Assembly (NCBI RefSeq): GCF_019320115.1
Contig: NC_089581.1
Coordinates: forward strand, 93,742,802 to 93,806,801
DNA length: 64,000 nt
Source of the DNA: Miscanthus floridulus
Lineage: Eukaryota > Streptophyta > Magnoliopsida > Poales > Poaceae
Direction: 5' to 3'
Below, in pieces: positions 11,075-64,000 of the stretch (its first letter is position 1; every line of letters starts with the position of its first letter). The notes beneath the pieces were generated by a model that was not told where the DNA came from, made no database searches, and saw only the letters and a list, made by a program, of their open reading frames with translations. The position numbers and the translations under genes are program-made.

Positions 11075-12375
11075 CCATGCTAGAGTCCTTGATTTGATGT
11101 TTGCAACATCAATCATTCGAGCATGGAAGACCATACCAAAGAATATCTAGAAGGATATATCTAGAAGGATAAGACCGTGCGCTATGGAGGACTACACAAA
11201 AGGAATATACAATCACCCTACTATAGCTAGGACAATTATTGAAGCATGTAGCTCTATCCAGTTGTCCAGGCAACAGTAAGAAGGAATAATTGAAGACTTT
11301 GCCAAGGCTCCTTCAGATGATAAGCATGAAGGACACTCCCTTCGTGCTATAAAGCGAGACGCCGAGCGCATTCGTGAAGTCATCAATCGAAGAAGCAAGA
11401 GCCAAGCATCACCAGCCTCAGACACACACTCTCATCCACCACCCACTCTACTAACTCCCCACTCACACATACACCATGAATACATGATCTTAGAAGGACT
11501 CTAAGAATCATCCACCATTAGTAGTAATCATCCATTACCATTGTATCACTCCACCTTTGTAAATTAGAGAATAAAGGAGGTCCCATGATCTTCCTGTGCT
11601 TGTAAGGTAATCCCTAAGGTTTGTGCTAAGTGCTTGGGGTTTCCTAAAAGGAAAAGCCATATGTAAGCTTGCTCTATGGAAATGAATTAAGCCTTCCTAT
11701 TTTAATCCCTGCCTTCCTTTAAGCTCGTTCATATGGGGCGATGTCTCTATGCTAGGGACCCTAGAGGAGAGACCTCTGCATGTGTTGTTCTCGTGTTAGC
11801 CCTGGTAGCGGCGTTTGTAGAGAACCCTGTGTGTGCAAAGAAGTGTTCCCTTTAGGTGGAACTGCCTGGGGAGATGATAGAGCCTAAGTCCTATGTGTGC
11901 GTGGCTGTGGATAGCGAGGGAGGAGACCAAGTTAGCCAAGTTCCAAAGCGAGTTAGTGATGCATACGGTGAGTACCGAGTAGGACTGTCACAAGCATAGT
12001 TGCACGACTGGCTAAACTGTTGGTCTCACCAGCCTGTAAAAGATCCTCAGAAATATTTATCCGCATAAGAATATTCACTAAGCACTCTCATAACTAATTG
12101 CGAAAGCGACATCATGCCACATTTGTAGAGGCCTCATGCCTTGAATAGTAAAGTGGTTAAGCAACTCCCGGGTGAGTGCTCGCGCACTGTTCATATCCTG
12201 AATCTAAATAGTAACCTCAAATTTGAATAGTGAATGCTGAATTTGAATAGTAATTCAAAATTTTAGAATCTGAATTTTGAATCCATTTGGGTTCTCTATG
12301 AATACAGCCCCCTGTACGCAGTGGTATCAGAGCCTAATTATTAAATTTCTAATTTAAAGGATTTACTATAATCTG
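11075..12375 (+). promoter_or_regulatory. EPRV intergenic region, copy 1 (promoter, poly(A) signal, leader)
   Basis: Closely similar to 59316-60660. Order of signals: TATAAA at 11348-11353, AATAAA at 11570-11575 (about 220 bp downstream, the spacing expected for a terminally redundant pregenomic RNA), a long leader, and a tRNA-Met primer site at 12322. A leader ORF starting ATG 11733 (MGRCLYARD) stops after 40 codons at TAG 11853. The left end at about 11075 abuts the Athila RT and marks the viral integration or recombination junction. A short duplication (atatctagaagg, twice, near 11144-11170) is private to this copy. Confidence 0.75.
12322..12337 (+). other. EPRV minus-strand primer site (tRNA-Met), copy 1
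   Basis: TGGTATCAGAGCC at 12322-12334 matches the initiator tRNA-Met complement used by caulimovirids. It lies 54 bases before the first viral ATG at 12376. Confidence 0.8.
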
Positions 12376-12499
12376 TTGAAGATTAAAAAGTTACATTATT
12401 TAAACTTAGAAGTTAATACAGGAAAGACAGACAATACTAAAGAGAATATAAATATATGGTGCAGACTAAATAGCTCTAAAGAACATACTTGGCATACCA
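12376..12499 (+). pseudogene. EPRV unit B first ORF, N-terminal piece
   Basis: The viral frame opens at ATG 12376 (MKIKKLHYLNLEVN), just after the primer site, and is cut at 12499 by the minus-strand chromovirus. The rest of the open frame to 12870 is LTR sequence read through by chance. The viral sequence resumes at 27940. The piece is too short to assign; by position it is the N-terminus of the protein that continues into the coiled coil at about 28040. Confidence 0.6.
12495..12499. repeat. Target-site duplication TACCA (left) of the minus-strand chromovirus
   Basis: TACCA at 12495-12499 is repeated exactly at 27935-27939, immediately outside the two LTR termini (TGAAGCG... and ...GTTACA). 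Confidence 0.9.
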
Positions 12500-15400
12500 T
12501 GAAGCGACCTGATTTCCACGAAGGGAAATCCACAGAGTCGAAGTGTAATAAGACCATTGTAGATCATATTACCCAAATTTCTAGTCGAATACCACATCCA
12601 TACAATGATAATATCAGAGTACAAATAGTACGGAATTACATAATTTACTACATCGCCGCATTGGCGGAATCAAAAGTAGCATTCATTCAGAACAGCTTGA
12701 AGATAAGATCACCAAACTCGAGCGTAGGCACGAACCCATTATCCGTCAAACTCCTTAGAGCTATACTCCTCAGTAGAACCTGTGTGCCAAAATTTATCAG
12801 TATGATTTGTACTGGCCAATCCCACCCTATGAGCTTTGCTTTGTGGAAATTGGATGCATGTCAGATATAATCAAAAGGAACCTATGAGGCTGGGGTTTCC
12901 TATGCAGTAGCATATCAAGTATATAATAATAGTTCGTCAAGTTTTAACACCATTCCCACACACCATCCACCCCATTTCCTTCCCCGAGCTAGGTTTCAAT
13001 CCTAGGATCGATATACCACCATCTCCACACCATCACCATACCATCGCTCAGTCGACAGGCCAACTCCCTCTCGGCACTGTCTCAAGGCCCGTAGCCCCTG
13101 GCTACGATTGACACTCTCCCACGGGGGAAGAAGAGAAGGACTCATCTCACTATCTAGTTTAAGCGAAACCCAGGAAAGGTCCATAGCCGACAAGTCGGCA
13201 CATGTATCAATCGATCAACCATACACTCTGCAGAGGTTTTACATAACCACAAGATCTACCTTCCTCGCTGACCGTCGTCAACTGGGCTGATTCTGGCCGC
13301 TAGCTAGCCTAGGATAATGCCACTCTACCATTCAGCCTTGGTACACCCCAAGTCTAGTCTGGGGTGGCTGAAACTGTGAGTCATGAGCCAGGTCCACAAG
13401 GTCTCCATGAAGTCTCAGAAGGGTGTGGGGGAAATCCTCCATGCCCCGTACCTCCTTACACTGTCCGCTATCAACCTAGCAGTAGTGGCAATATCCTACC
13501 AAGTAGTCCGGCCAACCCGCACCATATAGGGCAAGTGGTACGTAAGGCTTCCTGGTGAATCTAAGTACTAGTAAGTCCTTAGGGTTGACCAAGCCAGAAT
13601 GTCTTCATCAGGGTTTCCATTTACCGTGGCACCATAGCACCTCCACCCCAGGCTCCTCCCATCATAGGTTCACACCTAGGGTCACCTCATATACCATTTA
13701 CCCACCATAGGTATCCATTCCAGGGGTGCCTAGGTAGCACCACATGGCATGACTTGCCCTAGGCTCATCATATACTCCAACTTGGTCGACACAACCCTCA
13801 CCCTCCACACACCCAAGTCACACACGCAGCACTCTCCCCATAGTCTAGATAACACCAGTTTCCACCACGCGTCAATGTAGTATAAGCGTAGTAGAAGTAT
13901 GAGCAATGAAATATAGCAGCAAGCATGTGTCTAGCCTAATAGCAGGGTATGCAGGGGTAAGGTTGCGTTAAGGTAAAGGCCACCAAGTAAGCATACTACC
14001 ATGCAAGTCCTATCATAGTATGATTATAATAGTAAAGTAAAGCAATAGTAGTTCTATATTAGCCATGCATAATAGGTGCTATGAGATTGGGTGGGATGTG
14101 GCACCTTCAGTGTAGTCGTCTCTGTTCTCCTCACGGTACTCACGGTCCTCGTCCGTCAGGTTCTCTGAGTCTGCAACGATCGTATTATAGTCGCGTTAGC
14201 GACGTCTATAGAATAGCACAAAGAAGCAATGAAATTTCAAAAGAGCCAAATGCACTCAAACATGGGTTCATTATGTAAAGCTCGATTTTAGATGAATTTT
14301 GGTCCTGGTTTTATATTTTTCTGAGGTCGTATGAATTAGTTATGAATTTCTGAAGTTTAAATCATTTCTAAAAATGGAAAAGGCCGAATTAATTCTAGGC
14401 TGACACGTGTCACGCTATGACTGGTCCACATGGTCATGCTGACATCATTGTCTCGGTTCTGAGCTGATAGGTGGGGTCCAGCTCACGTTAGCATGACGTC
14501 AGCATGACGTCATCAACGACATTAGTTTCGATAGGTGGGTCCAGGGGCTCTTGGGTCACTGACATGTGGGTCCAGTCAAAGTCAATGCTAGTCAACAGGC
14601 GAGTCAATGGTCAATGGTCAATGGACAGGGTCACTGACATGTGGGGCCAGGGCTGCTAACGTCAGTAGCTGATGTCATCATGGCGTTAGCATGATGTCAC
14701 CCCGGCTGTGTTGGCTTCTGACATGTGGGTCCCATGTGATGTCAGCATCTGACATATGGGTCTAGAGTGTCTGTGCCACTAACATGTGGGGCCAGGTCAA
14801 CGGTCAACATTGATCGGTCAATGGTCAACATGGGCCAGGTCCAAACTAGGCCGGTTGGGCCTAGATACGGGCTGGGCTTTGGCCCGCCATGTGGCATGCT
14901 ATGGTGCTGCCATGTCACATCCTTGGGCCTCTACTGGGCTTCGTTTCTAGGCTGTGGGCGTGAGCGTGGCTCACGGTGGACCAAGAGGCGCTGGTCTATG
15001 GACCTAAGGCAGGGTGCATGGTGGACCAAGTCCACCTCTCTTTCCTCAGGCATGGTCTATGAGCACCGGGTTCATGCGTGGGTGGCCAGCGAGGGGAATT
15101 TCCCCTGTTTCTCCTACGGCCGTGCACTTGCCAGTGGCGAGCTCATTGGATGAGCCCCCACGATGGCGCTGGTGTCCAATTGAGGAGGGGAAAAGTTCCC
15201 TCACACCATGGTGACTACGATGGTGGGGGGCCGACTAATGGTTAAGGCTTCCCAGGGCTCTGGCCATGGCGAACGGTGGATCAGCATGGCGGTGCTCGTT
15301 GATGAGTCACAGACAGGGTGATGTGGTGGCTGGAAGCTTGCTTGGTAGGGCGCGTTAGCTCCCTGTGGCTCCAGTGAACGGGGCGGATGAGTCAAGGAAG

Positions 15401-17005
15401 CTCCAGGCACTTCCAGGGGTCCTAGCCATGGTGGTGGTGCATGGTGGAACTCCGGCCGGTGGTTTGGTGCTTATGGCTGGGGCGCTGTGGTCGGCTATCG
15501 ATGACTCAGTCTACGCGACTATCCTCCAGACGTCACTGTGATCCTCTATGGCCGTGTTCTAGTCCGACGAGGTGGCCGGGTGCGTGAGTGGTGGTGCACG
15601 GCATGACGGCGGCATCGTGAGTGCAGCATGCACGCGCTCTGCTATGGCGTCCAAGGGCTTAGAGGTGGTCATGGGTGTGCGCATGAGTGTGCTATGCTTA
15701 TGTGCCTAGAGGCCGGAGATGGCCTTGGCCTACGCGCTCATGGTATGGAGCGCCATGGCCGGAGTAGCAAAGTCCGGCGGCAAGCAGGGGAGAGTCGAGC
15801 GCTCACCGTAGGTGTCATGGAAGATTGGATGGTGATGCAGTGGTGAGTTACGGCCATGTAGCTCCAGAAGTAGCGCAGTGTCGTGCAGCGTCGTGGCGTC
15901 GGCTCCTACTCCAGTGGCTTCGGAGGTGTTCCGATGGCGCCTCCTTCTTTCTCCTCCCTCTCCCTTCCTTCTTCCTCTCCTTTCTCTGGCTCGGGTGTGC
16001 ACGGGATGGCCACAAAGTGGTGGCGGGGCATTGAGAGCTTAGGGCACCAGGGCCAGGGCTTTATAGCCGATCAGGGAATAGCGGAGCCCGGTGATCGGCG
16101 GATGGGGAACAAGGGCGATCGAAGGCACGAGCTTGCATCCAATGGCCACGAGTGGTTGTGTGGGCACGGCGCCAAGGAGACAGGGCCATGCCCCGGGCAT
16201 GACCCCCTGGCCTGCTCCTGCTAAGGCTGTTGGGGCTTGGTTAGAGGCATGAGCGGCGTGGGGGTGGAAGACGACACTGTGGACGGGGGTGGCTGACATG
16301 CGGGGCCCGTGTGGTAGCGGTAGCAAGGGAAGGCGGGGAGGTGTGTGGGCGTGAGTAGCACACTGGCTGGCTTGCTGGGCCTACGCAAGCTTGTGGGCCG
16401 GCCTGTTGCGGCTGTGCGTGGGTCAGTGAAGCCAGGAGGGCGAGTCTGGGCCAGTTGGTTGCTTGGGCTAGCTTAGACTTTTCCTTTTTCTATTTTTCTT
16501 TTCTTCTCCTTTGTTTGAATTCAAATTTGATTTGAAATTCGAATTCCAAATTGGTGCACCATATTCATTGGAGTTTTAGATATGAGGTCCACAACATACT
16601 TATATAAATATTAGGAATTTATTTAGCTATTTTGTATAACAAAAATAGGTGTAGTTTTGTTATACAAAAATAGAATTAATTTTCTCTTTAAACCCTTATT
16701 CCTTGGTTTGAGTAATAATTACTTTTATGGTGTGTTTCTTTAAAGAAGTTGTTAAGCATAACATAAGGCAAATGGAAATCCAAATCACAAGTTGAGTTAA
16801 CAATATATGCTATGTTTCATTTCTTAGTATTTAAATAAACATGATTAACAATGGCATGCCATGCTTGTGTGATGAATGAGGTTGGGGTTAGACCTAATGC
16901 ATCTCTTAGGTTGGATTTCTATACATGACACTCATCAACGCATGGGAGTTTTAAGAAAAATTTTGTAGTTGGTATTTTTAGTGTATGGATTTTTGGGTTG
17001 TTACA
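12500..17005 (-). repeat. 3' LTR of the minus-strand chromovirus (4506 bp)
   Basis: Plus strand begins TGAAGCGACCTGATTTCC and ends GGGTTGTTACA. It matches 23394-27934 throughout. It holds a GC-rich block (about 14850-16450) flanked by AT-rich ends, and a cluster of GTCAA (inverse W-box) and ACGT-core motifs at about 14400-14840. Plus-strand frames in the GC block (for example 14767-15153, 15883-16224) are not supported as genes. Confidence 0.9.
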
Positions 17006-17020
17006 GTCCTACTCCCTTAA
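17006..17020 (-). other. Polypurine tract of the minus-strand chromovirus
   Basis: On the minus strand AAGGGAGTAGGAC lies directly before the 3' LTR (TGTAAC...), the expected plus-strand primer position. Confidence 0.65.
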
Positions 17021-17049
17021 TAGAATCTCGTCCCCGAGATTAAAGCGTA

Positions 17050-20000
17050 ACGTACTCTTCAAAGAGGTAAGGATATCATAGCTAGAGGTCAGACTCTTTC
17101 TCCCATGTTGCCTCTCTCTCCGTGTGATTGCTCCATTGGATCTTGCACATAGGAATGGTCTTGCTTCGGGTCTCTTTGGTATCTCGACCCAGAATTCTGA
17201 TAGGATGTTCTTTATACTCAAGTGTATCTTGAATGTCAAGTGTATCAGTTGGAACTACTTCATCGGGCACTCTCAAACACTTGCGTAGCTGTGAGACATG
17301 GAATACGGGATGTACACCCATCAATTCCTTAGGTAGCTCAAGTTTGTAGGCGAGCTTCCCAATCCTCTTGCAAATCTTGTATGGGCCAACAAATCTAGGT
17401 GCAAGCTTTCCTTTCACATGGAATCTAACAGTTCCACGTAGCGGGGATACCTTGAGATAGACAAAATCTCCCACATTGAACTCTAGTTCTCTTCTTCTTT
17501 TGTCAGCATAGCTCTTGTATCGACTTTGAGCAATCCTCAAATTCTCCTTCACTTGAGCAACTCCTTCTTCGGCATCTTGAATTTTAGCGGAGTCAAAGAA
17601 CGACCTTTCTCCTAGTTGGGACCACATCAAAGGTGTCTTGCAAGGTCTGCCATACAGAGCTTCAAATGGCGACATCTTGATACTGGCTTGGTAGCTGTTG
17701 TTGTAAGAGAACTCTACATAGGGTAGGCATTTCTCCCAATCAGAGCCATAATTCAGTACACTAGCGTGAAGCATGTCTTCTAAGATCTGATTTACTCGCT
17801 CTGTCTATCCATCTGTTTGTGGGTGATAAGCGGTACTAAAATCAAGTTTGGTTCCAATGGGCTTGTCCAGAGCTTCCCAAAATTAGGACACAAACTGAGG
17901 ACCATGATCAGATACAATACTAGAAGGAGCTCCATGCAGTATGAGAATATGCTCAACATATAGATCTGCTAATTTTTCGGCATTGGTCTTGGTCTTAACT
18001 AGTACAAAGTGTGCAATCTTGGTCAAATGATCGACAATCACCCAGATGGAATCATTGCCTTTCTATGAACAGAGCAATCCAACTATGAAATCCATGGATA
18101 TGCTCTCCCATTTCCACTTAGGAACGTCAAGAGGCTTAAGCAATCCTGCAGGCCTTTGATGTTCAGACTTGACTCTATTGTAGGTGTCACATCATGCCAC
18201 ATGTCCTGCAATGTCTGTCTTCATGCCCTTCCACCAGAAGTGTTTCTTCAAGTCTTGGTGCATCTTTGAACCTCTAGGGTGAATACAGTACTTGGAATCA
18301 TGAGCTTCTGACAGAATTTCCTCTCGTAGTACTAGATCAGATGGAACATAGATTCTATTCTTGAACCAGATGGTTCCTTGTTCATCTTCCTAGTGGTTGG
18401 TCTTATAGCCTAGTTTCATCAGACCACGGAGATATTCGATCTCTTCACAACTTTTCTGAGCTTGATGGATACGATCTATGAGATCATACTGTATGCGAAG
18501 CTCATTCAACTAGCCATGCGATAGTATCTCTAGTTGGAAATCATCAATCTCTTCCTTGAGCTTAGGTGGTATGGATTCAGTGATCAAAGTGTGATAGTAA
18601 CTCTTGCGACTAAGAGCACCTATGACTACATTAGCTTTTCTCGGATGATAGTGGATTTCTAGGTCATAATCTTTGATCAACTCTAGCCATCGGTGTTGCC
18701 TCATATTTAGATCTTCCTGAGTGAAAAAGTACTTCAAGCTCTTGTGATCCGTATAGATATCACACTTGTTGCCTATCAAGTAGTGTCTCCAGATCATCAA
18801 GGCATGCACAACTGCTGCTAACTCAAGATCATGGGTTGGGTAACGGTTCTCATGTTCTTTCAACTATCGAGACGCATATGCTATCACTCTTCCATCTTGC
18901 ATCAGTACACAACCAAGTCCTTGATGGGATGCATCACAATAGACCACAAAATCTTTGCTGATATTAGGCAATGCTAGCATAGGAGTTGTGGTAAGCTTCT
19001 GTTTCAATTCCTAGAAGCTTTGTTCACACTCGGGCATCCATTCAAACTCCTTAGTCTTCTTCAGAAGGTTGGTCATTGGACGGGCTATCTTGGAGAAGTT
19101 CTTAATGAATCGGCAATAATATCCAGCCAATCCCAAGAAACTTCTGACTTCTATCACATTACGTGGTTGATCCCACTCTTTCACAGCTTCAATCTTGGCT
19201 AGGTCAACTATGACACCTTCAGCTGATAGTACATGGCCTAGGAAGGCAACTTCCTGTAGCCAAAATTTGCATTTACTAAACTTTGCATAGAGCTAATGTT
19301 GGGCTAGTTTCTCAAGCACCATTCTTAGATGATGTTCATGTTCCTCCATGGTGGATGAATAGACAAGGATGTCATCAATGAATACTAACACAAACTTATC
19401 AAGTTCATCCATGAAAACCTTATTCATCATGTTCATGAAGTATGCTGGAGCATTTGTGAGTCCAAAGGACACCACGGTGAACTCAAACTACCCATACCTA
19501 GTCATGAAAGCTGTCTTCGGGATGTCACTCTCTCAAATCTTCATCTGATGATAGCCGGATCTAAGATCAATCTTGGAGAAATACTTGGCACCTCGAAGCT
19601 GATCAAGCAGATCATCAATCCTTGGCAGGGGTACTTGTTCTTGATGGTGACTACATTCAAGTTCTGGTAATCAATGCACATTCTCATTGAGCCATCCTTC
19701 TTCTTAACAAACAGAACAGGGGATCCCTAGGGTGAAGCATTGGGTCTGATATATCCCTTCGAGATGAGCTCATCAAGCTATTTCTTGAGCTCGGCCAGTT
19801 CATCAACTGACATGCGATAGGGTCTCTTGGCAATGGGTCCTATTCCTAGCAAAAGATCAATGATGAACTCTACATCACGGTCTGGTGGCATACCCGGTAA
19901 TTCTTTAGAGAATACATCGGGATAGTCTCTGACCACAGGCACATCATGTACTATCTTCTCCTCTTTCTGTGATTCTGAACTAGTTTTAAGGGCACACAAG

Positions 20001-20450
20001 ATAGAGGTGGACTTTCTAGACTGGGGTTCACATCTAATGACCTAGCCTGATGGGTGGGTCGCTTGGACATATCTAGGTGAACATGATATGATACCTCGGT
20101 GAATGGTTAACCAATCCATACCTAAGATGACATCTAGGTTTGTGGAAGGTAGCAGGGTTAGGTCGGCTTTAAAGATAAGACCCTCAATGGTAAGACTCAC
20201 TCCCTTACAGATGTGGGTGCATTTTAGGTCTCCTAAAGGTGAACTGGTGATGATAGGCTTTTCACGTGGGGTTACAGGCAGGTTATGTTCTCATGCAAAC
20301 TTGGATGATATGTAAGAACAAGTTGCTTCAGAGTCAAATAGAACTGATGTAGTATTGCCATTAACTAAAAGCATACCATACACAACGTCAGGGGCAGCCT
20401 ATGCTTCCTCGGTGTCCAGATGGTTGAGACGTCCTTGGGTAGTAGATCCC
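17050..20450 (-). pseudogene. Chromovirus pol remnant: PR-RT-RNase H-integrase-chromodomain
   Basis: Minus-strand pieces in order. The protease at about 20340-20050 has its active-site triad changed to D-S-E. RT spans 19999-19290, with RDYPDVFSKELPGMPPDRDV at the start and an intact FIDD at 19382-19371. RNase H covers 18960-18510 ([31 protein letters not shown]). The integrase core is decayed at about 18450-17780, and an integrase C-terminus runs 17774-17082 (SYNNSYQASIKMSPFEALYG, HPVFHVSQLRKCL). It ends in a chromodomain-like tail (IPMCKIQWSNHTEREATWE). In-frame stops include TAGs at places where the family has an invariant Gln, such as the QTDGQTERV context near 17805. Not functional. Confidence 0.85.
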
Positions 20451-20479
20451 TTGAGCTGAGACTTCTAAGCAGTAGAGTT

Positions 20480-21679: not shown

Positions 21680-22004
21680 CTGCAACACGGATCATAGAGA
21701 ATTTAGTGTTTGTGCCATAAGTGCTTATAATTCAATATGATTACATGATTTTGATGATTTAAAGAAAAACATTTATACTATCCAACACTCATTACAAAGA
21801 AGCAATAAGATTCATAAGATGCAATAAGATCCAAAATATTCATTATATGGGTTTTATTACATAGCATCATCTCTAGTAGTTACACTTGAAGACGTGCGGG
21901 AATTGTACTATGCATAATGTCTCATAATACATCTCATAAGGGGTACATCATGGGGTACAACTTACAAAAACTACTAACATGACTCTTGACCACGCAGGGT
22001 CATC

Positions 22005-23391: not shown

Positions 23392-23393
23392 AC

Positions 23394-27934: not shown

Positions 27935-27939
27935 TACCA

Positions 27940-35904: not shown

Positions 35905-35905
35905 C

Positions 35906-41704: not shown

Positions 41705-41706
41705 GC

Positions 41707-51740: not shown

Positions 51741-51745
51741 CCTCT

Positions 51746-52098
51746 ATGATATGTCAATTGGCTGCTATAAGAGAAAAAGAACTTTACTTTAGATTAGAGT
51801 TATATAGACTTAATAACATCAAGAAAGATGAGAGTTAAATAATAAGAAATTTAGCACTCCAATAAAGAAAAATGAATTTGTATCAAAACAAATAGAAAAT
51901 AGGGTAAGGGAAACCCAAAAAGAATTAGAACATAGCAAAGATAAGATAAAAGACATAGAAGATAATGATATAAGCAAAGAGGAGCAATGAGAAATTAATA
52001 ATAAGTTTTTATTAGAAATCTAAGAAGAAGAGGATGAAGATACAATTGAGATATGCAGTAACTTAGTAAGTCTCATAAACCCCTTAGAAAATAAAGAG
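51746..52098 (+). pseudogene. EPRV unit B, shared module continued (acidic linker before capsid)
   Basis: Begins just after the TSD in a frame reading IREKELYFRLELYRLNNIKK (about 51768-51830), almost the same as unit A at about 60767-60830. An A-rich, acidic stretch follows with several stops. It includes KEEQ-stop-EINNKFLLE (about 51977-52020), which matches EEEQWEINNEFLLE in unit A. The stop is TGA where unit A has TGG. The module's function is unknown; it bridges movement protein and capsid here. Confidence 0.65.
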
Positions 52099-52870: not shown

Positions 52871-55800
52871 TGTAACACCCTAGGTGTTAGCCTTGCATAA
52901 CTTGACTTGCATAGCATGAGCATGATCATCAAGCATTCATATATAAGCATTTACACTTGAAACATTTGATTGAAACATATGCAACATTTCTTATTATTTC
53001 ATGTTTCCATGTGTATATGCATATGATCATGAGTGAATACATGTAGACGGTTGATATGAGTCACAAAAACATGTTAGCAACACTTAGGTTAGCAAATGGA
53101 ACATTGTTCATGAATGTCACCTTTCATGACCAAGCACTTAAGTGATGTTAGATGTGTTGACCTGGATAGCCCTATATGTGACCAATGCATGAAATGATTG
53201 TATGACCTTGCAATTAGCTTAAACATGTTTAGAGTATCAATATGAACAACTTTGATATTTATGGTTAGGGGTAAATAGGTCACTAAGCCCTAGTTTGATT
53301 GTATACCATCTTTTGAATGTAACATGTTTGACCAAGTTTGAACTATGTGCTAGAGACCTTGCATGGAGGTGGCCACTAAAGCAAAGTTGTAGTGTTTGGC
53401 AAGAGGAACAACTTTTGTTTTGGGTCATTGACTAGTTTAGCTCCTAACATGCTTGATTGAGGCTCACAAAAATCAGCAAATCAACCTTTTCAACACTTAG
53501 CAATTTTTCTAAGTCCTAAGAGCTGACAGTGTTGACAAGCTCACTTTTGAGATGATTTTACACACTAACCGTTGTGAATTAGCACATGATCCTTTAAGAA
53601 CAAATGGAACTGGTACATAGAGCTACAAGTTTGTTATTGACTATTTTCGATTTGGCTACACGGTTTGAGAGATCGGGCTTCACGAAAACCCGCTGTCAGA
53701 CCTTGCATTGCTTAACTGACGAACTGAATCGCCGTTCTTCAGTGGCCGACTCCGGTAGAGCTCACGCGTCGTGTGGAGGCAAGCACGGCTGCATATCACC
53801 GGCACCCTACCCTGTGTGGCCAAGCCAGGCCAAGGCTAGCCTTATCACCTCTAGCACCCGCCCGCACTGCCCTGCGCTCGCCATTTTCATTTTCTTGGCC
53901 TTCTTGTTCGCCGCAACAGTAGCCGCAGCACCGAGCGCTCGCCGCCGGTGCCATTATCGGCGCTAGCTTGCCCTCGCCGCTCCTTCACCTTTGCAACCCC
54001 TCCACCATCTTCCTCGAGCCTCACCGCGTCCACCCGTGCTCACTGACCATGCTCAGTAAGCTTCCGCACCATGCTTGACTTTGCTGGAGCATCACCGCCG
54101 AGGCCGTCACCATGGTTGGAGCACCTCTGTCCACCATTGGCCGTGCAATCTTGTGCGCTAGGTCCACCTGAGTCCGTAGAAGCTCGTCCACGCATTAGAT
54201 TGAGTCGCCATGGCCTCCACCGGCATAGCGCCGTTGTCCAGCTCCGCTGAGCTGCCATGGTCGCCGCCATCGTCGTTAGCGCCGGCGGGAGGCCCAACCA
54301 AGTAGCTCAATCGGTGCGCTAGGTCGTGGGGGTCATGTCATGTTGATGCCATCATCGGTGAAGCTCGCCGTTGACGAGCCATGGCCGTGCAATGTCGCGC
54401 AGTGCCGCTGCCCTGTTCTGAGTCACTGACGCATGGGGTACACTGTCAGGAGGGACCCGGCTGTCAGCGACTGGAGCAAATAGGATAGGTTAGTTGTTTA
54501 CAGATTTGGTAGAATCTTTGAAATTTGATAAGTTGGGCTATGTAGATTCAAAAATTGTGGAATAAACTTGGTAGTGTTCCTTAGGAAGTGTAGTATTTAG
54601 GGAAAATATAATCTTGACACTTGCAGTATAATTTTTGGAGGATTTAAATTGAAACTTGGAATGTGTTTTTGAATGTATGTAAACTTGTTTATTTTATATC
54701 TAGAGTTCCTGTTCTCCAAAAATTATGAAATTTTTGTGGTAAGCTGTTCTTGTCATGTATGAACTCTGGTAAAAGTTTGAGAGTCAGTGCATGTATAGAT
54801 TTGTAGTTATAGATTTTTCTTTTATAATTAGGTAATCCTTGTATGATTTTTTATAAATTAATTATGAATCCAATATTCATGAAATTTGTTGGAGGTTATC
54901 CTAGTACCATATGCATGTTAGGAAAAATATAAAATCTATTTCTTGACACTTTTCACTAGGGTTTTCTATTTTTGCTATTGTAAGCCTTTCTGCCTTGTGA
55001 TTTTTGTATAGAATGTTCTACTTGGTAAAATGGCATGAAACTTTTACAGTAGTCTTTTGGTAGCATTAGTAAGGCACTGTAAATTTTTGAGAATTTATGA
55101 TCGACATTTATTATATGTTTATTATTTAACCTAAGTATCAAAATAAAATAATAAGGGCATTTAAATAAATAGTTTGGGCTTCACCATTAGGTTTTCTTGG
55201 GTGTAATTGGTATGTGTAAACTGTTGGTAGACTTTGTATTGTCAAACTTTGAATGCTTACATGAAGTAAAAGTATTGTTGCTTTATAATGCGAATTGGAA
55301 GAGTTTTCGGATAGATTTGGTAGTTTGGTATGTTGCTTGGTAAAAATGGTGTTTGCTGTAAAAATGGTTAATAACAAAGTTGTAGAAAACTTCTTAATGT
55401 ATCTTGTGTTAAAATTTCAGAGCAATAGGCCAAGGGGTTTAGGAGTTATGGCTGTGCAAAGTTAGTATTTCCGAATTTCCTTACTCTCTGGAATTTCTGG
55501 ACAGCACTGGGTTGCTTGTCTGTTTTGATTAAGATAAATTGTGAATTAGCTTTTGGTGATTAAATAATAGTTGTAGACAATTTTATAATCTTTCCATAAA
55601 GTCCAAGATCACAGCATTTGGATAAGTAGAACTTCAGTTATGAGTAAAATGATTAGCTGCTGTGTGGTGATATAGTAGATGCATTGATGAAGTAGTTAAT
55701 TGAATAATCAAGAAGAGATATGCACATACTCAGTAACACATGATATACTTGTTATTCCTTAAACAACATGCTGTTAAGAATACTTACAAGAATGCATTCC

Positions 55801-57505
55801 TTACTGATCATGCAACTATACTTGTCAACATATACGCATTCGCAATACCTTATACCATATTCATGCATCTAGGACCGGAGGAAGAAATAATGTTGCTGTA
55901 GTTCGACGAAGCAGAGGAAGGGGACCAGCAGGAGAATCCTCAAGCCGCAGCTCCCAAAGGCGAGGAGCAGAATCCAGAAGAGCTTCCGGAGTGTCCTGAT
56001 CACCGCCCCCACGTCCTTTCTGAAAGGAAAGCCCGGGAGCATTCTAAGTCTCCCAATATTTTACAAATGATTACTTAAATTCTTATGATTGTTGCATTAG
56101 GTTATAAGAGTTGAATGGAACCACTTGATGCATATAAAGTCCTTGTCCAGATATATACACCGTAACCCTATGTTGGTCCAGGATCGAATATATGCTTAGC
56201 CATGCTTAGACCGGTAGAAGTCGGGTGATTTCCTATCACCTGCGAGATATAGGTGGATACCGGAGCATGGTTGGCTATATTTGCTATCATGGAACAGAAT
56301 CATGGGGTAAAAGAAAATCAAGGCCAGGCGGAGTCTATGCGTAGGTTGACTCATGTGATTCCATCTGTGCTGATTAAGGACCGTACTATTGTTGGCGCTT
56401 CTGATAAGATTGAACGCATGCCTATTATTTAGCTGGCCGGATAACTCGTTCCGACTGCAAAGCTGAGTAGCTCAACTCAGGCCAGGTCTCGTTCAGTTGT
56501 GCGCTCCTTGCAGGGAACCAAACTGAGCCCAAGGGCAGGGTAGGCCTGAACGTCTTGGCATTTGGTGTCCTCGATTGTGCGGTGCGGTACGAACCCGAGA
56601 AATGTGTACCTGAGTTGGACCAAAGGTGACCTAAGGTGACTAATGATCTGGTCTGCCTGGGTTTGTGTTAGGAATAAATTCCCAGCTAGTTGAAATCGAT
56701 TTGAATCGCCGTCTCTCCCGGATAGTGAGAAACTTGGCTAGTCCCAGCATCGTAGTAACTGTGTTATGGAACATGATGGTTCGAATGAATATGGAATTAC
56801 AATACCAGCTATGGTTACTACTGTATGCTTTTAAAATGATATACCACATGTTTGGCATAGGATATTTGCTAATTTAGAGGTGGATAGTTATAATTAACTT
56901 GATAATGGGACTATAATTGTATAACAGAGTTAATTGCTTTTATGCAAAATGTTGTTAAGCTATCTCCACTTATACAACCTTGCATGATCCTTGGAGTCCT
57001 TTTTATTTCTGGTTTATGACAGGTAAGTCTAGCTGAGTACCTTCTCATACTCAGGGTTTTATTTCCCATTGTTGTAGATGGCACTGTGTATCATGGTTAT
57101 TGCAAGAGTTGCTTCTATCCTGCTGTGGATGAGGAGTATGCCTTGGGCAGGCTTCTTATTTAATCCCTCTACATGCTTTTATGGACTATGATCGTACTTC
57201 GGCACTGTATTAAACTATGTTGGAAACTTTACTTTCAAACTTAATTTGCTTCCGCTTCTGTTATCAAACTTGGTTTGTAATAACTTTGTTTCATACTCTG
57301 ATGATGAAAATATATCTGTGAACTTTATGTAATATGTGACATGTATGTTGAATCATGTACGATCTTGGTTGTTGTAAATCGTTTATCGAGACCCATCGTG
57401 GTACTCGACGGACTACCGGGTTTATATGGGTTCAAGTATGACAGTGTGACCGCTTGTAGGCTGCCATTGTACTTGTACTCTTATAAATTGGTTAGTTCTG
57501 CGACA
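52871..57505 (+). repeat. Solo LTR of a divergent relative of the young chromovirus (4635 bp)
   Basis: Starts TGTAACACCCTAGGTGTTAG and ends GTTAGTTCTGCGACA, parallel to the 37168 LTR (TGTAACACCCTAGGTGTTAG ... GGTTCTGTTACA). The same order of landmarks is present: GC-rich block (53690-54480), the GAGTGTCCTGATCAC segment (about 55990), the CGGGTGA/TCACCTG hairpin (56222-56242), CGCCGTCTCTCCCGGATAGTGAGAA (about 56707), and the GTAAGT...TGTAG segment with its hairpin (57023-57077). No internal region is present, so it is a product of LTR-LTR recombination. The overall divergence is large. It interrupts the EPRV capsid frame. Confidence 0.9.
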
Positions 57506-57510
57506 ATAAC

Positions 57511-58411
57511 ATTTGCTTTCAAATAGTTAAGAAAAATATGCACGAACATACAAGCCCAAAGATCAATGAAACAATTAGATTATAATTTTTGCAATAAAAT
57601 AGTCCAAATACCATTGACATATGGAGAAGAGAGATCTAGAAACAAGAAATATCCTGATAATTATAAGAAAGGAAATGTAAGGACAAAGAGACATTATTTT
57701 CTAAGAAGATCAGACAATAGAGCTCCATTCCTCCATAAGAGAAATGTGAGAAGATATAATCCTAGGAAAAATTATGATAGTACATGTAGATGCTTTATTT
57801 GCAACTCGCTAGATCATTTAAGCAAAACATGTCCTAACAAAGACAAGAAAAGGTATTCTAATAAGCAAGAAGAACAAGAAAAGGTTCAAATAATAGATAG
57901 TGTGAATGAAAATATTTTAGTCTTTGATGATGATATAATGGATGATGAATTGATATACTCAATTATAGAAACATATGAAATAGAATATGATGAAGAAAAA
58001 GAATCAAGTGATGAAGAGTTAGACTTAATTGATGACTTAGCAGGATTAAAGATAGAAATGATGGATCAAATAAATTATGAACAAAAGTGGGATCATAAAA
58101 AAGATGATTCTAATATAAAATGTGTATTTTGCATATATTATCAAGATCCAACAAAAAGAGCAACATGTAGGTTATGTTTAAGACAAGCATGTATGTCATG
58201 TCTAAAACAGCAAAGTGATATAAAAAATGGCTCAGAAGCTGAGATACTATATGAGGATAATAAAGTGCAATCAGAAAAAGAAGTAATTCTAGAGGAAAAA
58301 GGAAACAAATATTTAAACAATATTCTACAAGAGTTTCTCATTCCTAGATTAAGTTTTAAGACTGAACAAATTTTGTCATACTTTACTCATGATATTATAG
58401 ATCTTATCTAG
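57511..58411 (+). pseudogene. EPRV capsid C-terminal part: zinc knuckle, acidic linker and Cys-rich module
   Basis: The capsid core resumes and gives a 281-residue frame from 57566. A perfect CX2CX4HX4C knuckle (C-FI-C-NSLD-H-LSKT-C) lies near 57787-57830, preceded by an Arg/Lys-rich stretch for nucleic-acid binding. A long acidic segment follows (about 57895-58080). Then comes a second Cys module, CX2CX11CX2CX4CX2C, at about 58122-58203. That spacing is the one described for the coat proteins of badnaviruses and tungroviruses. The frame ends at TAG 58409. The first part carries a TAG at 57523-57525. Confidence 0.78.
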
Positions 58412-59315
58412 AAGAAATATGCTGAAAGGCATTACAAAACCTTTCATGATATACAAAACTATTTTATGAAATTATACCAAGGTAAAGAAAGGCATCTAGG
58501 AATAATTGTGAATTCAAATACTTTTCCTTTACTTCATCTTGATGATAAACTAATTGTTAAGCCTCATCAAAGATTCTTAATATTGAGGGTTGATATAAAT
58601 TTAAAATATTTCAGAAGTATACAAAGAAATATTGGAGCTAATATCTCTATACAAACTATTATTGATCATGGGTTAGTCTATGATATATATGGTACTCTTG
58701 AAGAAATTTTCCAATCAGACCTTGGAATAGCTATCAAAGAAGCCTGTAAGAAATTAGCATGTATTCAAGGGAAATACAAAAATAAGTTTTGTTTTAATCC
58801 ACCAAAATTTACACAACCAATAAGACTAGCATGCCATGATATATATATCACAAGGGATCATACAAATTTACTACTACATGGACTTCAGACTCATGGCAAA
58901 ATTACAAAGAGATATTCATAAAAGACACGAATCATGCTAACTGGAGAATTTTCAGTGAAGCAAAAGAATTAGAAGGAATACCAAATTTGCTCCTGAATAT
59001 TATATGATGTACCAAAATAAAATAATAAAAGTATTTTTGTGAGAATACTATGGAACATATAGTATAATACAAAGAGAGGTTGGTAGACTAAAGACTAGTT
59101 ATGGCAAAGAATGTCAATTACAAAAAGAATATCATGAATTATTGTCCTGGTATGAAATATGGCAACCTAAAGAAGTGGACAACGAAGAAAATATTGGTGA
59201 ATCATAAGAAGAGTCAATACAGATTCAATTCAATGTCAATATACATACAAAAAAATATACTCCATATGTTGATAAGGTGTTATCAACAATTTGGCAGGGG
59301 AAATATAATACTACA
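58412..59315 (+). pseudogene. EPRV unit B C-terminal domain of unknown function
   Basis: After the stop at 58409 the same frame continues (ERHYKTFHDIQNYF), reopening as a 151-residue frame 58466-58921 (RHLGIIVNSNTFPLLHLDDK, RFLILRVDINLKYFRSIQRN, GLVYDIYGTLEEIF). Further coding-like sequence to about 59310 requires frame changes and passes several stops (for example SYGKECQLQKEYHELLSWYE). No protease (D-T/S-G), RT (YxDD) or RNase H motif is present, although in monopartite relatives those domains would follow the Cys module. I do not recognise this domain. It ends where the second intergenic region starts. Confidence 0.55.
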
Positions 59316-59965
59316 TGCCAGAATCCTTGATTTGATGTTTGCAACATCAATCATTCAGGCGTGGAAGACCATACCAAAGAATATTCAAAAGGATAAGACC
59401 GTGCGTTATGGAGGACAGTGCAAAAGGAATATACAGTCACCCTACTGTAGCCAGGACAATTATTGAAGCACGTAGCTCTATCTAGCTATCCAGGCAATAG
59501 TAAGAAGGAATAATTGAAGACATCGCCTCAAAGGCTCTTTTAGATGATAAGCATGAAGGACACTCCCTTCGTGCTATAAAGCGAGATGCCAGGTGCATTC
59601 GAGAAGGCATCGATCGATCGAAAGAAGCAAGAGCAAGCATCACTAGCCTCAGACACGCACTCTCATCCACCACCCACTCCACCAACTCCCCACTCACACA
59701 TACATCATGAAGACATGATCTCAGAAGGACTCTGAGAATCATCCACCATTAGTAATAATCATCCATTACCATTGTATCACTCCACCTTTGTAAATTAGAG
59801 AATAAAGGAGGTCCCTGTGATCTTCCTACTGCTTGTAAGATAATCCCTAAGGTTTGTGCTAAGTGCTTGGGGTTTCCCAAAAGGGAAAGCCATATGTAAG
59901 CTTGCTCTGTGGAAATGAATTAAGCTTTCCTGTTTTAATCCCTGCCTTCTTTTAAGCTCGTTCAT

Positions 59966-60217
59966 ATGGGGCGATGTCTCTATGCTAGGGACACTAGAGG
60001 AGAAACCTCTGCGTGTGTTGTTCTCATGTTAGCCCTGCTAGCGACGTTTGTAGAGAACCCTATGTGCGCAGAGAAGTGTTCCCTTTGGGTGGAACTGCCT
60101 GGGGAGACAATAGAGCTTGAGTCCTGTGTGTGCGTGGCTATGGATAGCAAGGGAGGAGACCGGGCTAGCCTGGTTCCAAAGCGAGCTAGTGATGCATACT
60201 ATGAGTACCAAGTATGA
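59966..60217 (+). CDS. Small leader ORF in the EPRV intergenic region
   Basis: 83 codons (MGRCLYARDTRGETSACVVL), with a hydrophobic segment at about residues 17-29 (ACVVLMLALLATF) and a Cys-containing acidic tail. The same ATG and first 39 codons are present in copy 1 (11733-11855), where the codon after CSL is TAG instead of TGG. It sits between the poly(A) signal and the primer site, in what would be the pregenomic RNA leader, a place where caulimovirids carry short ORFs that affect ribosome movement. Whether it encodes a used peptide is unknown. Confidence 0.35.
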   Translation: MGRCLYARDTRGETSACVVLMLALLATFVENPMCAEKCSLWVELPGETIELESCVCVAMDSKGGDRASLVPKRASDAYYEYQV

Positions 60218-60429
60218 CTGTCACAAGCATAGTCGCACGATCGGCCGAACTGTTGGTCTCGCCAGCCTGCAAAAGATCCTCAGAAATATTTATCCGCATA
60301 AGCACATTCACTAAGCACTCTCATAACTAATCATGAAAGCGACATCACGCCATATTTGTAGAGGCCCCGTGCCTTGAATATTACAGTGGTTGAGCAACTC
60401 CCGGGTGAGTGCTCTGCACTATTCACATC

Positions 60430-60500
60430 ACGAATTTGAATAGTAACCACGAATTTGAATAGTGAACGCCAAATTTGAATAGTGCTATGAATAGTAACTC
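60430..60500 (+). repeat. Short tandem-like GAATTTGAATAGT repeats upstream of the primer site
   Basis: About four imperfect copies of a unit of 17-20 bp (ACGAATTTGAATAGTAACC type) lie just upstream of the primer site. The related tract in copy 1 is at about 12200-12260. Role unknown; possible RNA structure or recombination-prone element in the leader. Confidence 0.6.
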
Positions 60501-60565
60501 GAAATTTTAGAATCCAAATTTCGAATCCATTCAAGTTCTCTATGAATACAGCCCCCAGTATGCTG

Positions 60566-60581
60566 TGGTATCAGAGCCTGG
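60566..60581 (+). other. EPRV minus-strand primer site (tRNA-Met), copy 2
   Basis: TGGTATCAGAGCCTGG at 60566-60581, the initiator tRNA-Met complement, 87 bases before the unit A ATG at 60668. Confidence 0.85.
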
Positions 60582-60667
60582 TTATTAGATTTTGAATTTA
60601 AGGGATTTACTTATATTGCCAAGTTTAAACAAGTTGCCTAGTATAACCTTAGTCAAATACTTTACTT

Positions 60668-61092
60668 ATGGAAACTTTAGATAGTTATATTCAATATTAT
60701 GAGAAAAAATTAAGTAAGATTCCTAATGAATATAATACATCTATGTTATGTGAATGGTTTGCCATAAGAGAAAAAGAACTTTATTTTAGACGAGAGTTAT
60801 ATAGACTTAATAACATCAAGAAAGATAGAGAACTAAAAATAAATATTTTAAAGCACCTGTTGTGATAAAGAAACAAGAAGATGAGTTAAAAACTAAAGAG
60901 AAAGAGCCTCATAAAGTTAAAGAAATTGTGCAGATAAATAATAGTGAATAGATTACAAATGAAGAAGAGCAATGGGAGATTAATAATGAGTTTTTATTAG
61001 AAAGTTATGAAAAAGAAGAAAATAATGCTCAGAGTTACCAAGATTTTATAGACTCTTTAGATGATGAAGAGTTATACAATCTAGATAATGCA
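60668..61092 (+). pseudogene. EPRV unit A, shared N-terminal module
   Basis: Frame from ATG 60668 (METLDSYIQYYEKKLSKIPN) to TGA at 60863, then an acidic/lysine-rich continuation in a shifted frame with a stop near 60949, including EEEQWEINNEFLLE (about 60964-61005). It matches unit B across 29232-29304 plus 51746-52030, where it lies between movement protein and capsid. Here it follows the primer site directly, so the movement domain is absent. It leads into an acidic stretch (SLDDEELYNLDN) and the Cys module, so the capsid core and zinc knuckle are absent too. Confidence 0.7.
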
Positions 61093-61500
61093 ATGGAAGG
61101 GTTAGATATAATATCTAAAAATATTAATAGTTCAATAGAAACAAAAATAGAATTAATGAATCAAGAAGACTATGAGCATGATTGGATAAAAGGAAGAGGT
61201 GATTATAATATAAAATGTGCTTTCTGCATATATTATCCTAGTCAGAAAAATAGATCCACATGCAGCATATGTTTAAAGCAAGCATGTTCCTTATGTTTAA
61301 GAACCAATAACCAAAAATGGAGATAGGAAGTAGAACTAGAATCAGAAGATAAATTATTAGCAAGCAGAGTCAGAAATCTAGAGAATAGAATAAATAGCTT
61401 AGAAGCAGAATTAGAAGAGCTAAAGAGTAAAATAGAACTCAATGAAGCTAATAAGATAGAAGAAAATTATAAAGGTCTTACCGAGTTAAAGGATCAAGCA
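61093..61500 (+). pseudogene. EPRV unit A Cys-rich module and coiled coil
   Basis: The frame at 61093-61326 contains C-AF-C then 11 residues, C-SI-C-LKQA-C-SL-C, the same CX2CX11CX2CX4CX2C module as in unit B (about 61217-61298). After an in-frame TAG (61324) the frame continues with a strong heptad pattern (RVRNLENRINSLEAELEELK, about 61366-61425), a predicted coiled coil, up to the protease. In unit B the sequence after the Cys module is unrelated. The module may bind zinc; its role is unproven. Confidence 0.7.
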
Positions 61501-62175
61501 ATGGTAAATAAAAAAAATGATAAAGCATTACAATTAAAAGAAGCCATAATAAACTTTGGTAGCAAATATATAGTTAGATTACCATTTAAAGAGATTATAG
61601 GAATAAGAGTACCTATAAAAGTAAAATTAACGTCTAATATCTCCTATAAAATATTAGCATTAGTAGACACCAGTTGTACAAAAAATATTATACATGATAA
61701 ATATTTTGTAAAATGTCCATAAATAGTTCATACAATAGATCAAGATAAAGTAGAAATGTCTACTGATATGTCTGGAATAAAAAAGGTTCATAATCAACTA
61801 GCTTATGATGTTGAAGTACAAATAAATAACATAAAATATATAATGGATGAAATTAAAATAAGAGATCTATCTATGATACATGATGATATAATATTAGGAT
61901 TAAGATTTTTACAATTCTCCTTACAAACAACCATCATACATGAGCAAGGTATAACATTTATTCCTTATCAAGACAGTATTCCATATATAACAGAAGTACG
62001 AAAGACTATAAACTCTAATCCAGAAAAGACCAATCTAGAACTCCAAAGATCTGATGAAAAGGTCCTTGATAATCATATAGATGAAGAGCTAGGTGAAAAT
62101 ATTGAAGATTTTCATATAGCAAACTCAGTGCATAGAATGTATCAGTATGCAATCATTAGCACCAAATTGGTATAG
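61501..62175 (+). pseudogene. EPRV aspartic protease remnant
   Basis: Same frame as the Cys module, stops at 61720 and 62173. The active-site region reads ALVDTSCTKNII with the Asp codon at 61666-61668; the invariant Gly of D-T-G is Ser here. A second half with DDIILGLRFLQ (about 61882-61914) matches the hydrophobic-hydrophobic-Gly flap/strand pattern of retroviral proteases. It would process the viral polyprotein. After about 62150 the coding continues in the next frame, so a frameshift separates protease and RT. Confidence 0.75.
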
Positions 62176-63019
62176 AGATATAAAATCTAAAAAGGATATA
62201 GATAAAATTGTAAGAAGATTAGAAGATATTCAGATAATTGGAGAAATACCAATGAAGCATTGGGATAAAAATGGTATAATATGTAAGATCAACCTAATAA
62301 ATCCTGACTATATAATCAAGACAAGTCATATAGAAGTAACACCTAAAGATATAGAAGAATTTAAGATGCATATCGAAGAATTACTAAAATTAGGAGCTAT
62401 AAGAGAAAGCCGAAGTCCTCATAGATCAGCTTTATTTATAGTTAGAAATTATGCTGAAATGGCTAGAGGAAAGTCAAGAATGGTTATTAATTATAAAAGA
62501 CTAAATGATAATACTATAGATGATGCTTATAATATCCCAAATAAGCAAGAATAGATAAATAGAATACAAGGAAGTAAATATTTCTCAAAATTTGATTTAA
62601 AAGCTAGGTTTTGGCAAGTAAAAATGGTAGAAGAATCAATAGAATGGACTACTTTCATATGTCCTCAAGGTCATTTTGAATGGCTAGTAATGCCCTTAGG
62701 ATTAAAAAATGCCCCTACATTATTTCAAAGAAAAATGCAAAATATTTTTAATGAAAATCAAGAATTCATATTAGTTTATATTGATGACTTATTAGTTTTC
62801 TCAAAATCCTATAAAGAGCATATAGCTCATTTGGAAACTTTCCTTAGAAAGGTAGAACAACATGTGTTAATATTGTCTAAAAGGGAAATGGAGATATGTA
62901 AGGAAAATATAATTTTTTTAGGTCATGAAATAGGAGAGGGAAAATTTTATTTACAAGATCATATTGCAAAGAAAATCTTAGAATTTCCAGATGTCATGAA
63001 TGATAAGAAAACCCTGTAG
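62147..63019 (+). pseudogene. EPRV reverse transcriptase remnant
   Basis: One frame with stops at 62552 (TAG) and 63017 (TAG). Motifs in order: ELLKLGAIRESRSPHRSALF (fingers), SRMVINYKRLND, FSKFDLKARFWQVKM, FICPQGHFEWLVMPLGLKNA and the catalytic YIDD at 62777-62788, followed by FLGHEIGEGKFYLQ. This is caulimovirid RT rather than Ty3/gypsy; no integrase follows RNase H. The catalytic aspartates are intact, but the stops truncate the product. Confidence 0.85.
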
Positions 63020-63616
63020 CAATTCTTAGGAATAGTAAATTATGCTAGAAATTATATTGAAAATTTAGCTAAGCTAGCTGGTCCATTATATGCAAAATTA
63101 AGAAAAAATGGGCAAAAACATTTTAATTCTGAAGATATAAAGTTAGTAAGAACTATTAAAGAAAAGATCAAAGATTTAAAACCCCTAGAGTTACCATTAG
63201 ATGATAATTATTTCATTATAGAGACAGATGCATCCAAGTTAGGATGGGCTATAATATTAAAGCAAAAACCACAAAAGTACTCTCCAAAGTTAGAAGAAAA
63301 AATATGCAGGTATGCTTCAGGAAAATATAAGCTAAAAGCAATAAACAATACAGATAGGGAAATTTTAGCTGTTATCAATGCAATAAATGCTTTTAGATTA
63401 TATCTAGGATTTAAAGAGTTTACAGTTAGAACAGACTGTGAAGCCATATGCAGATACTACAATAAAGTCAATAGTAAGAAAAATTCAACTAGGCGATGAG
63501 TTCTATTTGAAGATATTATTACTAGAAATAGTTATAAAGTAATATTTAAGCATATAAAAGGTAAAGATAATACATTGCCTGATATATTTTCACGATCTTC
63601 TATTTTGCAGGAATGA
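63020..63616 (+). pseudogene. EPRV RNase H remnant
   Basis: Continues the RT frame. The connection (QFLGIVNYARNYIENLAKLA) leads into RNase H with FIIETDASKLGWAI (first Asp near 63227), TDREILAVINAINAF, VRTDCEAICRYY and GKDNTLPDIFSR, so all four acidic positions look present. An in-frame TGA lies at 63496 and the natural end is TGA 63614-63616, overlapping the next ATG. It would remove the RNA strand during reverse transcription. Confidence 0.83.
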
Positions 63617-64000
63617 AGAGAGGAACAAGCCCTATTAGGGGTGAATGTTTTAGCTTTGAAATTGATAATAAGTTAAGAATTTTTCCACCAAATACTTATA
63701 AATTCAAGCCTCGAGACCATATTGTTCTAGATGATATACAAGAATGCATCCTAGACAATTTCTGGTTCTAATATAACAATAAAAGAGAAGATAAAGGTTA
63801 TATGCTAGCAATATTAAATAGTCTGGTTGAATATTTTCATATGATTAATGGGAAAATACAACCAAAAGAACCATCTAGCAATATAGAGAAAAAACCCATA
63901 TGTGTTATATATAGGGGGAAAACACCAGGAATTTATATATCATTTGAAGAAGTTATAGCTCAGTAGATAGAAAAAGAAAAAGATGGAGGAGTGTCTTGGA
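63613..64000 (+). pseudogene. EPRV viroplasmin/transactivator-like ORF, partial
   Basis: ATG at 63613-63615 overlaps the pol stop (ATGA). The frame has stops at 63769 and 63964 and runs off the window. The stretch CVIYRGKTPGIYISFEEV (63901-63954) fits the RNase H1 N-terminal/viroplasmin fold found in caulimovirus ORF VI transactivator proteins. Those proteins build inclusion bodies and promote reinitiation on polycistronic RNA. Assignment rests on this motif and on position after RNase H. The upstream 90 residues are not recognised. Confidence 0.55.

Follow-up and report, generated by a model that had tools for sequence, protein, structure and literature searches.

Analysis of a 64,000-nt stretch of the Miscanthus floridulus genome (C2:93742802-93806801, referred to here as the window) revealed two pararetroviral units at positions 11092 to 64000. 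The two, unit B and then unit A, lie head to tail on the forward strand, each behind an intergenic region of 1.3 kb (IR[1] at 11092-12367 before unit B and IR[2] at 59330-60650 before unit A). The first-pass annotation of this stretch had proposed that both units are preceded by a common promoter-leader-primer region of about 1.3 kb, and the comparison bears this out. IR(1) and IR(2) share 84 to 92% identity across almost their entire length (positions 1 to 382 of the 421-base probe IR3), and the primer site TGGTATCAGAGC, which we take to be a match to tRNA-Met, is present in both (12322-12333 and 60566-60577).

Unit B begins with open reading frame 1 (ORF1), which is preserved in two pieces (12380-12498 and 27933-28278, 93% and 90% identical to ORF1 of copy L018, respectively). 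It continues with a movement protein (MP) gene (28279-29238, 95 to 96% identical to the same stretch of L018) and with a linker between MP and capsid protein (CP), likewise in two pieces (29240-29304 and 51740-51962, 97% and 90% identical to L018). The N-terminal and middle parts of the capsid gene follow (51963-52862, 93 to 94% identical to L018). The capsid end with a first zinc knuckle of the CCHC type (57533-58030) matched PF22909 with an E value of 3.6e-4 and zf-CCHC with 0.025, both below the curated cut-off, and was found in all 19 B loci that were fetched. A second zinc domain of the form CX2CX11CX2CX4CX2C was read from the ORF listing at 58030-58330. The place of protease (PR), reverse transcriptase (RT), and RNase H (RH) is occupied by an SFKTE domain (58330-59250), which was recognized by the motif RLSFKTEQILSYF and by its homologues and matched no Pfam family. 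The MP and CP of the window were named from aligned copies, because its own broken ORF pieces gave no Pfam match to MP (28829-29314) or to CP (52396-52641). Among the copies, PF01107 was matched above the cut-off in L022 (3.6e-6) and L011 (1.1e-5), and PF22909 was matched in L018 (1.7e-18). ORF 58412-58920 was ruled out as a movement protein; it lies in the SFKTE domain, the MP domain being located after ORF1 and before the linker.

Unit A starts with a homologue of the MP-CP linker (60669-60950), directly followed by a second zinc domain (60950-61330), the capsid being missing. Downstream are an aspartic protease split over two window ORFs (61330-62170; Peptidase_A3B, E value of 0.0028 in copy L036, below the cut-off), a reverse transcriptase (62170-63020; RVT_1, 1.6e-29), an RNase H (63020-63600; RT_RNaseH, 5.5e-15), and a last, ORFz-like ORF with a viroplasmin-like motif (63610-64000; Cauli_VI, 0.076). 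The last ORF continues to position 395 of the adjoining stretch L009, through which the end of the unit was traced to approximately 585 bases outside the window. Two forms of the unit A 3' end occur (L009 and L016 versus L022 and L029), with the junction to the shared tail near SFb probe position 331 or 58. The gene contents previously assigned to the units (MP and capsid without PR, RT, or RH in unit B; PR, RT, RH, and a viroplasmin-like ORF without MP or capsid in unit A) were thus recovered by mapping, with ORF1, the zinc domains, and SFKTE added to unit B. The domain sets are complementary, as had been claimed, but they are not entirely nonoverlapping: the linker and the CX2CX11CX2CX4CX2C zinc domain are present in both units.

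The recurrence of the two unit-defining junctions was analyzed by searching the host genome (2.68 Gb) with probes. First-look candidates numbered 339 for the probe over the linker and second zinc domain of unit A (linker-Zn2A), 221 for the probe from the second zinc domain of unit B into SFKTE (Zn2B-SFKTE), 225 for the first zinc knuckle (Zn1), 148 for RT, and 139 for PR. The best 40 places per probe were scored; these are the most window-like, and the ranking puts full-length matches first. Nineteen of the 39 other B places were fetched with their flanks (L010-L028), as were 12 stretches upstream of the 39 other RT places (L035-L046), and the combined map also holds L009, L029-L032, L047, and L048. 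The linker-Zn2A probe was spanned in 40 of 41 match rows; the remaining row covers only positions 410 to 661 and represents an inverted joint. All 40 rows of the Zn2B-SFKTE probe span at least 666 of its 671 bases. Places with A are distributed over 20 contigs and places with B over 18, so that the unit boundaries recur at many loci. The recurrence of both junctions excludes chance.

The 20 rows found for the protease N terminus reduce to 19 unique copies, as L034 and the minus-strand row of L035 represent the same copy. Sixteen of these show the order linker-Zn2A-protease, and three lie at inverted joints; a capsid upstream of the protease was found in none of the 19. Conversely, every Zn2B copy read (24/24, counting the window and the L047 fusion) runs into SFKTE, and none of the 24 runs into a protease. 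No Zn1-RT pair at the estimated monopartite spacing of ~2 kb was detected among the 40 x 40 scored places. A contiguous MP-CP-PR-RT-RH genome, which is characteristic of orendovirus and eRTBVL, was therefore not encountered among the 19 protease and 24 Zn2B copies read, as the first-pass annotation had anticipated for a divided genome.

To compare the coding parts, 15 A and 18 B rows of the linker and 16 A and 21 B rows of Zn2 were used, with the A-type linkers of the hybrid copies L019 and L024 counted as A. The median identity between A and B was 69.9% for the linker DNA and 64.1% for Zn2, versus 89.6 to 94.2% within units, and in both regions a branch separates the A rows from the B rows. 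A different picture emerged for the 200 bases upstream of the primer site, with a median identity of 75.7% between A and B and of 74.8 to 78.1% within units. The intergenic tree (13 A, 7 B, and 3 hybrid rows) shows nine changes of the A/B label, compared to a mean of 9.0 after shuffling, and its strong branches alone force at least four. Two rows of this tree, L010 and L030, are long. Twenty-four primer sites within two mismatches of TGGTATCAGAGC were found before A and B alike. The accessible text of Chen et al. 2017 (PMC5491270) interprets the same intergenic pattern as concerted evolution through recombination in mixed infection.

Several copies have mixed or reduced structures. L019 and L024 have an A-like start (A-type linker, no ORF1 or MP) that continues into B and appear to be A/B recombinants. 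L010 is a B copy without ORF1 and MP. In L047 (C14:18518400-18521400), unit A reaches as far as position 382 of the RT probe and is there fused nonhomologously to the first zinc knuckle of unit B. A structured leader hairpin was rejected, since the RNA fold z score of -1.7 (20 shuffles) is not significant, and bacterial-type promoters were not clearly in excess when scanned for (4 versus 2.8).

Tandem copies were used to determine the unit lengths. A copies on C7 are spaced by 5,426 and 5,454 bases and B copies by 5,777 (L018) and 5,699 bases; the undamaged tandem unit is accordingly ~5.43 kb long for A and 5.7 to 5.8 kb for B. The deletion junctions are in frame, and a single reading frame runs through the joint in 9 of 14 A copies and in 10 of 22 B copies. 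Comparison of the A and B linkers revealed a nonsynonymous divergence (dN) of 0.23 and a synonymous divergence (dS) of 1.43 (6 pairs), which points to continued selection after the A/B split. A wider extraction, seemingly including one hybrid copy, yielded a dN of 0.29 and a dS of 1.24 for the linker (20 pairs) and a dN of 0.37 and a dS of 0.70 for Zn2 (130 pairs). Judged from these sequences, units A and B appear to be former replicating genomes.

Clustering of the listed places within 20 kb produced 100 clusters, of which 52 contain A only, 37 contain B only, and 11 contain both. Seventeen of 88 A points (some copies being seen via two probes) lie no more than 20 kb from a B point, compared to 0.07 expected under uniform placement. 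A and B thus appear to have been captured into the chromosomes together. Inverted arrays of unit A copies were observed at C10:23602054-23674969 and C7:127783882-127806224. In the C10 array, two spacings (18.94 and 22.74 kb) are each seen twice, an indication of subsequent local duplication.

The best Protein Data Bank match of the unit A RT was 8r0s ("Enzymatic polyprotein," 5.4e-68), presumably a caulimovirus enzyme, versus 2.9e-39 for Ty3. No integrase was matched in the scanned unit A ORFs. Together, the units display the traits of Caulimoviridae: an MP of the 30K type, a capsid with a CCHC motif, a caulimovirid-like RT-RNase H, and an intergenic primer site. In an RT tree of unit A and 42 proteins chosen from 120 listed, unit A was placed within an 18-row grass clade (SH-aLRT of 100). 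Approximately half of these rows lack a species name; the named members are from Setaria, Panicum, Paspalum, wheat, Aegilops tauschii, and rice. Rows from Solanum, Cajanus, Glycine, Tanacetum, Taraxacum, Dendrobium, and Zingiber fall outside the clade. The RT thus falls in the clade of Orendovirus/eRTBVL, the UniRef protein from Aegilops tauschii being assumed to represent the type virus. In copy L034, the last ORF shares 50% identity, over 73%, with rice Os08g0437566 (P0171). Cauli_VI was matched above the cut-off in P0171 (2.6e-4) and below it in P0145 and the window, so that an ORFz with a TAV-like motif after RNase H, as recognized through these relatives, is present here. A short TAV-like motif in the ORFz of eRTBVL is mentioned in the accessible part of PMC6179347. 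Florendovirus ORF2, according to the text available of PMC10377300, has no homology to other caulimovirid proteins; this does not describe the last ORF studied here, whose relatives match Cauli_VI. The virus was placed near Orendovirus/eRTBVL because its RT falls in the grass clade and its last ORF is viroplasmin-like.

The name SFKTE comes from Chen et al. 2017 (PMC5491270, accessible text), where it denotes a domain that replaces RT/RH in eRTBVL2 and is also found in ePVCVL. In this study, it was assigned by motif and place, the comparison being made with sequences other than the rice SFKTE sequence itself. Among 24 homologous proteins, 6 carry the exact SFKTE, 10 carry SFKT, and 14 have no motif, many of the last starting downstream of the motif in the alignment; copy L018 reads SFNTE. 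Scans of viral contigs with SFKTE and RT gave no matches. A structure prediction of the domain (mean pLDDT of 42) was not used. Unit B shares the eRTBVL2-type combination of MP and CP with an SFKTE domain and without RT/RH, and there is no protease between Zn2 and SFKTE, so that the protease retained by eRTBVL2 is absent. The Setaria protein P0004 is colinear with unit B from the zinc domain to SFKTE (72% over 357 columns), and the UniRef protein P0170 is colinear with unit A over the linker-zinc joint (48% over 132 columns). SFKTE was also observed joined to a viroplasmin-like ORF (P0013), to an A-type linker-zinc region (P0016), and to a protease (P0021, as described for eRTBVL2), i.e., at several joining points. 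The viroplasmin-SFKTE protein P0013 first suggested that SFKTE may be the old end of ORF4; most of the listed ORF4 relatives are too short for it.

Rice tungro bacilliform virus and the badnaviruses are monopartite, and their hallmarks include two Cys domains between CP and PR and a tRNA-Met primer site. The units resemble them in these features and in a weak bacilliform-type protease match; we know of no SFKTE domain in those viruses. On the orendovirus side, the RT of the grass clade and the ORFz-like ORF after RNase H link unit A to Orendovirus (Aegilops tauschii virus) and eRTBVL, as far as these are described in the accessible text of PMC5766536, PMC6179347, and PMC526188. The same sources present eRTBVL as a single circular genome with all essential domains, whereas the genes are distributed over two units here. 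In rice, eRTBVL2 has been described beside the autonomous eRTBVL (Chen et al. 2017, PMC5491270, accessible text). Like unit B, it is a Rice tungro bacilliform virus-like MP-CP genome without RT and with SFKTE, and as for A and B, its intergenic regions are common to and exchanged with an RT-bearing partner. In that description, however, the RT partner is autonomous (MP, CP, PR, and RT) and eRTBVL2 kept its protease; unit A lacks ORF1, MP, and CP, and unit B lacks a protease.

The florendovirus pairs of grasses were restudied as the complementary ePVCVL and ePVCVL2 in the same work (Chen et al. 2017, PMC5491270, as far as accessible). Bipartite florendoviruses have been reported from grape, rice, and sorghum, namely, OsatBV, VvinBV, VvinDV, and Sorghum virus components A and B (Geering et al. 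2014, PMC4241990, accessible text). Like A and B, they consist of two complementary components with near-identical intergenic regions and form compound insertions; in the descriptions available, the RT component of non-Oryza florendoviruses also lacks MP and CP, and SFKTE resides on the other component. These viruses belong to another branch, however, and in the Oryza pair the protease is reported on both components, compared to A only in this locus. At this locus, the RT groups with rice and Aegilops proteins in the grass clade, and a viroplasmin-like motif is present in the last ORF. In the parts of the open literature that were covered, with subscription papers and preprints outside the scope, no complementary pair was found on the orendovirus side. 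An A-like plus B-like complementary pair on this side therefore appears to be new, florendovirus pairs and the B-like eRTBVL2 being already known.

Taken together, the sequences are probably the fossil remains of an old pararetrovirus with two components, either bipartite or obligately paired, that belonged to the orendovirus/eRTBVL side of Caulimoviridae. The bipartite genome suggested by the first-pass annotation is supported by the recurrence of the junctions, the complementary genes, the divergence of the coding parts, and the intermixing of the intergenic regions. Complementary components, a common intergenic region, and compound insertions are also traits of bipartite retroelements. In such a virus, both DNAs would have been transcribed from the same promoter-leader region, and the protease/RT/RNase H of unit A would have copied both RNAs from the common tRNA-Met primer site. 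The capsid of unit B would have packaged both, and its movement protein would have moved both between cells. The common leader may have been what the shared proteins recognized, and both zinc domains may have bound it. Recombination during coinfection would have maintained the similarity of the intergenic regions despite divergence of the coding parts, mixed concatemers may have entered the chromosomes through double-strand-break repair, and the SFKTE domain may have had an accessory function.

Several observations weigh against this interpretation. The scored places were the best 40 of 139 to 339 candidates per probe and those most similar to the window, and a full-length virus that is diverged or rare would escape detection. 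Uniform placement is a generous null if integration hot spots exist. Intergenic identities spread widely, from 49 to 96%, and only 5 of the 20 inner branches of the intergenic tree are strong. Other same-strand A spacings of 3,778, 6,074, and 7,064 bases were recorded, and L011 contains a shorter B repeat from which most of the intergenic region is missing. Through decay, the junction is no longer open in 5 of 14 A and 12 of 22 B copies, and the dN/dS ratio of Zn2 is only ~0.5. A spliced gene model may underlie P0170. As P0021 and the published eRTBVL2 illustrate, relatives with incomplete genomes can coexist with an autonomous virus, and a mutual need of A and B would lie beyond the reach of fossil evidence.

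The chief rival explanation is that A and B were satellite-like deletion derivatives living on an autonomous full-length orendovirus that was rarely or never captured in this genome. This is unlikely but has to be weighed seriously. In rice, eRTBVL2 is paired with the autonomous eRTBVL (PMC5491270, accessible text), rice relatives of ORFz and RT exist (P0171 and P0056), and the natural ORFs P0013, P0016, and P0021 show that SFKTE has been joined at different points. However, no full-length arrangement was revealed by the 16 plus 24 informative copies or by the 40 x 40 spacing test, as far as the best-scoring places are concerned, and the intergenic region of the helper would also need homogenizing. 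No helper is needed, because the domain sets of A and B are complementary.

It is very improbable that host processes, i.e., segmental duplication or transposable-element-like spread, multiplied one rearranged integrant, in which case the copy number would be silent on viral replication. The arrays on C10 and C7 are clustered and partly inverted, and some copies are surely local duplicates, but A is found on 20 contigs and B on 18, the unit-length tandem periods fit viral concatemers, and the intergenic regions group independently of the coding parts. Finally, the earlier alternative, in which one monopartite virus gave rise to two deletion derivatives that recombination joined upon or after integration, solely at this locus, can practically be dismissed: illegitimate A/B joins do occur in arrays (e.g., the RT-Zn1 fusion in L047 and several inverted joints), but the same junctions are present at dozens of dispersed places, and the coding overlap of A and B is 30 to 36% diverged beside intermixed intergenic regions.

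Unit B is interrupted by four long terminal repeat (LTR)-type elements. The first, an LTR retrotransposon on the minus strand within ORF1 (12494-27934), has LTRs that are 91.7% identical over 4,563 columns and an integrase end at 17085-17804, minus strand (SH3_Tf2-1, 6.6e-26). The second is a Copia element on the minus strand within the linker (29305-37155; LTRs 94.7% identical; RVT_2 and gag_pre-integrs). It is followed by a young Ty3/gypsy element on the plus strand (37168-51743; LTRs 99.8% identical) with gag-, PR-, RT-, RH-, and integrase-type domains, which are carried by two long overlapping ORFs (42746-44674 and 44647-47208). The fourth is a degraded LTR-type element within the capsid gene (approximately 52866-57530), which shares 69% identity with portions of the Ty3/gypsy element's LTR; its boundaries and its plus-strand assignment are approximate. 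LTR pairs are dated with a rate of 1.3e-8 per site and year. At this rate, the first element was inserted roughly 3 million years ago, and the virus is older than ~3 million years, if the rate holds. Upstream of the virus, repeated blocks at 1769-3617 and 9911-11072 (88 to 91% identity) resemble the two LTRs of an old element; the right-hand end of this pair meets the virus at ~11072.

Among reverse-transcribing viruses, genome division has almost no precedent in the available literature, where the cases found are those of the fossil florendoviruses and of the paired fossils of rice. With a clean complementary pair in another branch, and with signs that intergenic regions were exchanged, genome division would be recurrent rather than odd. 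There is a somewhat better than even case that a truly bipartite virus of the tungrovirus/orendovirus side persisted in panicoid grasses until the coding overlap had diverged by 30 to 36%, with the regulatory regions evolving in concert, and that divided genomes have arisen repeatedly. If so, genome division in plant pararetroviruses took place more than once, in grasses with an SFKTE-bearing partner, and the SFKTE domain would be a recurrent partner module. The large fossil record, with 139 to 339 first-look candidates per probe, may serve for studying how two components stay matched.

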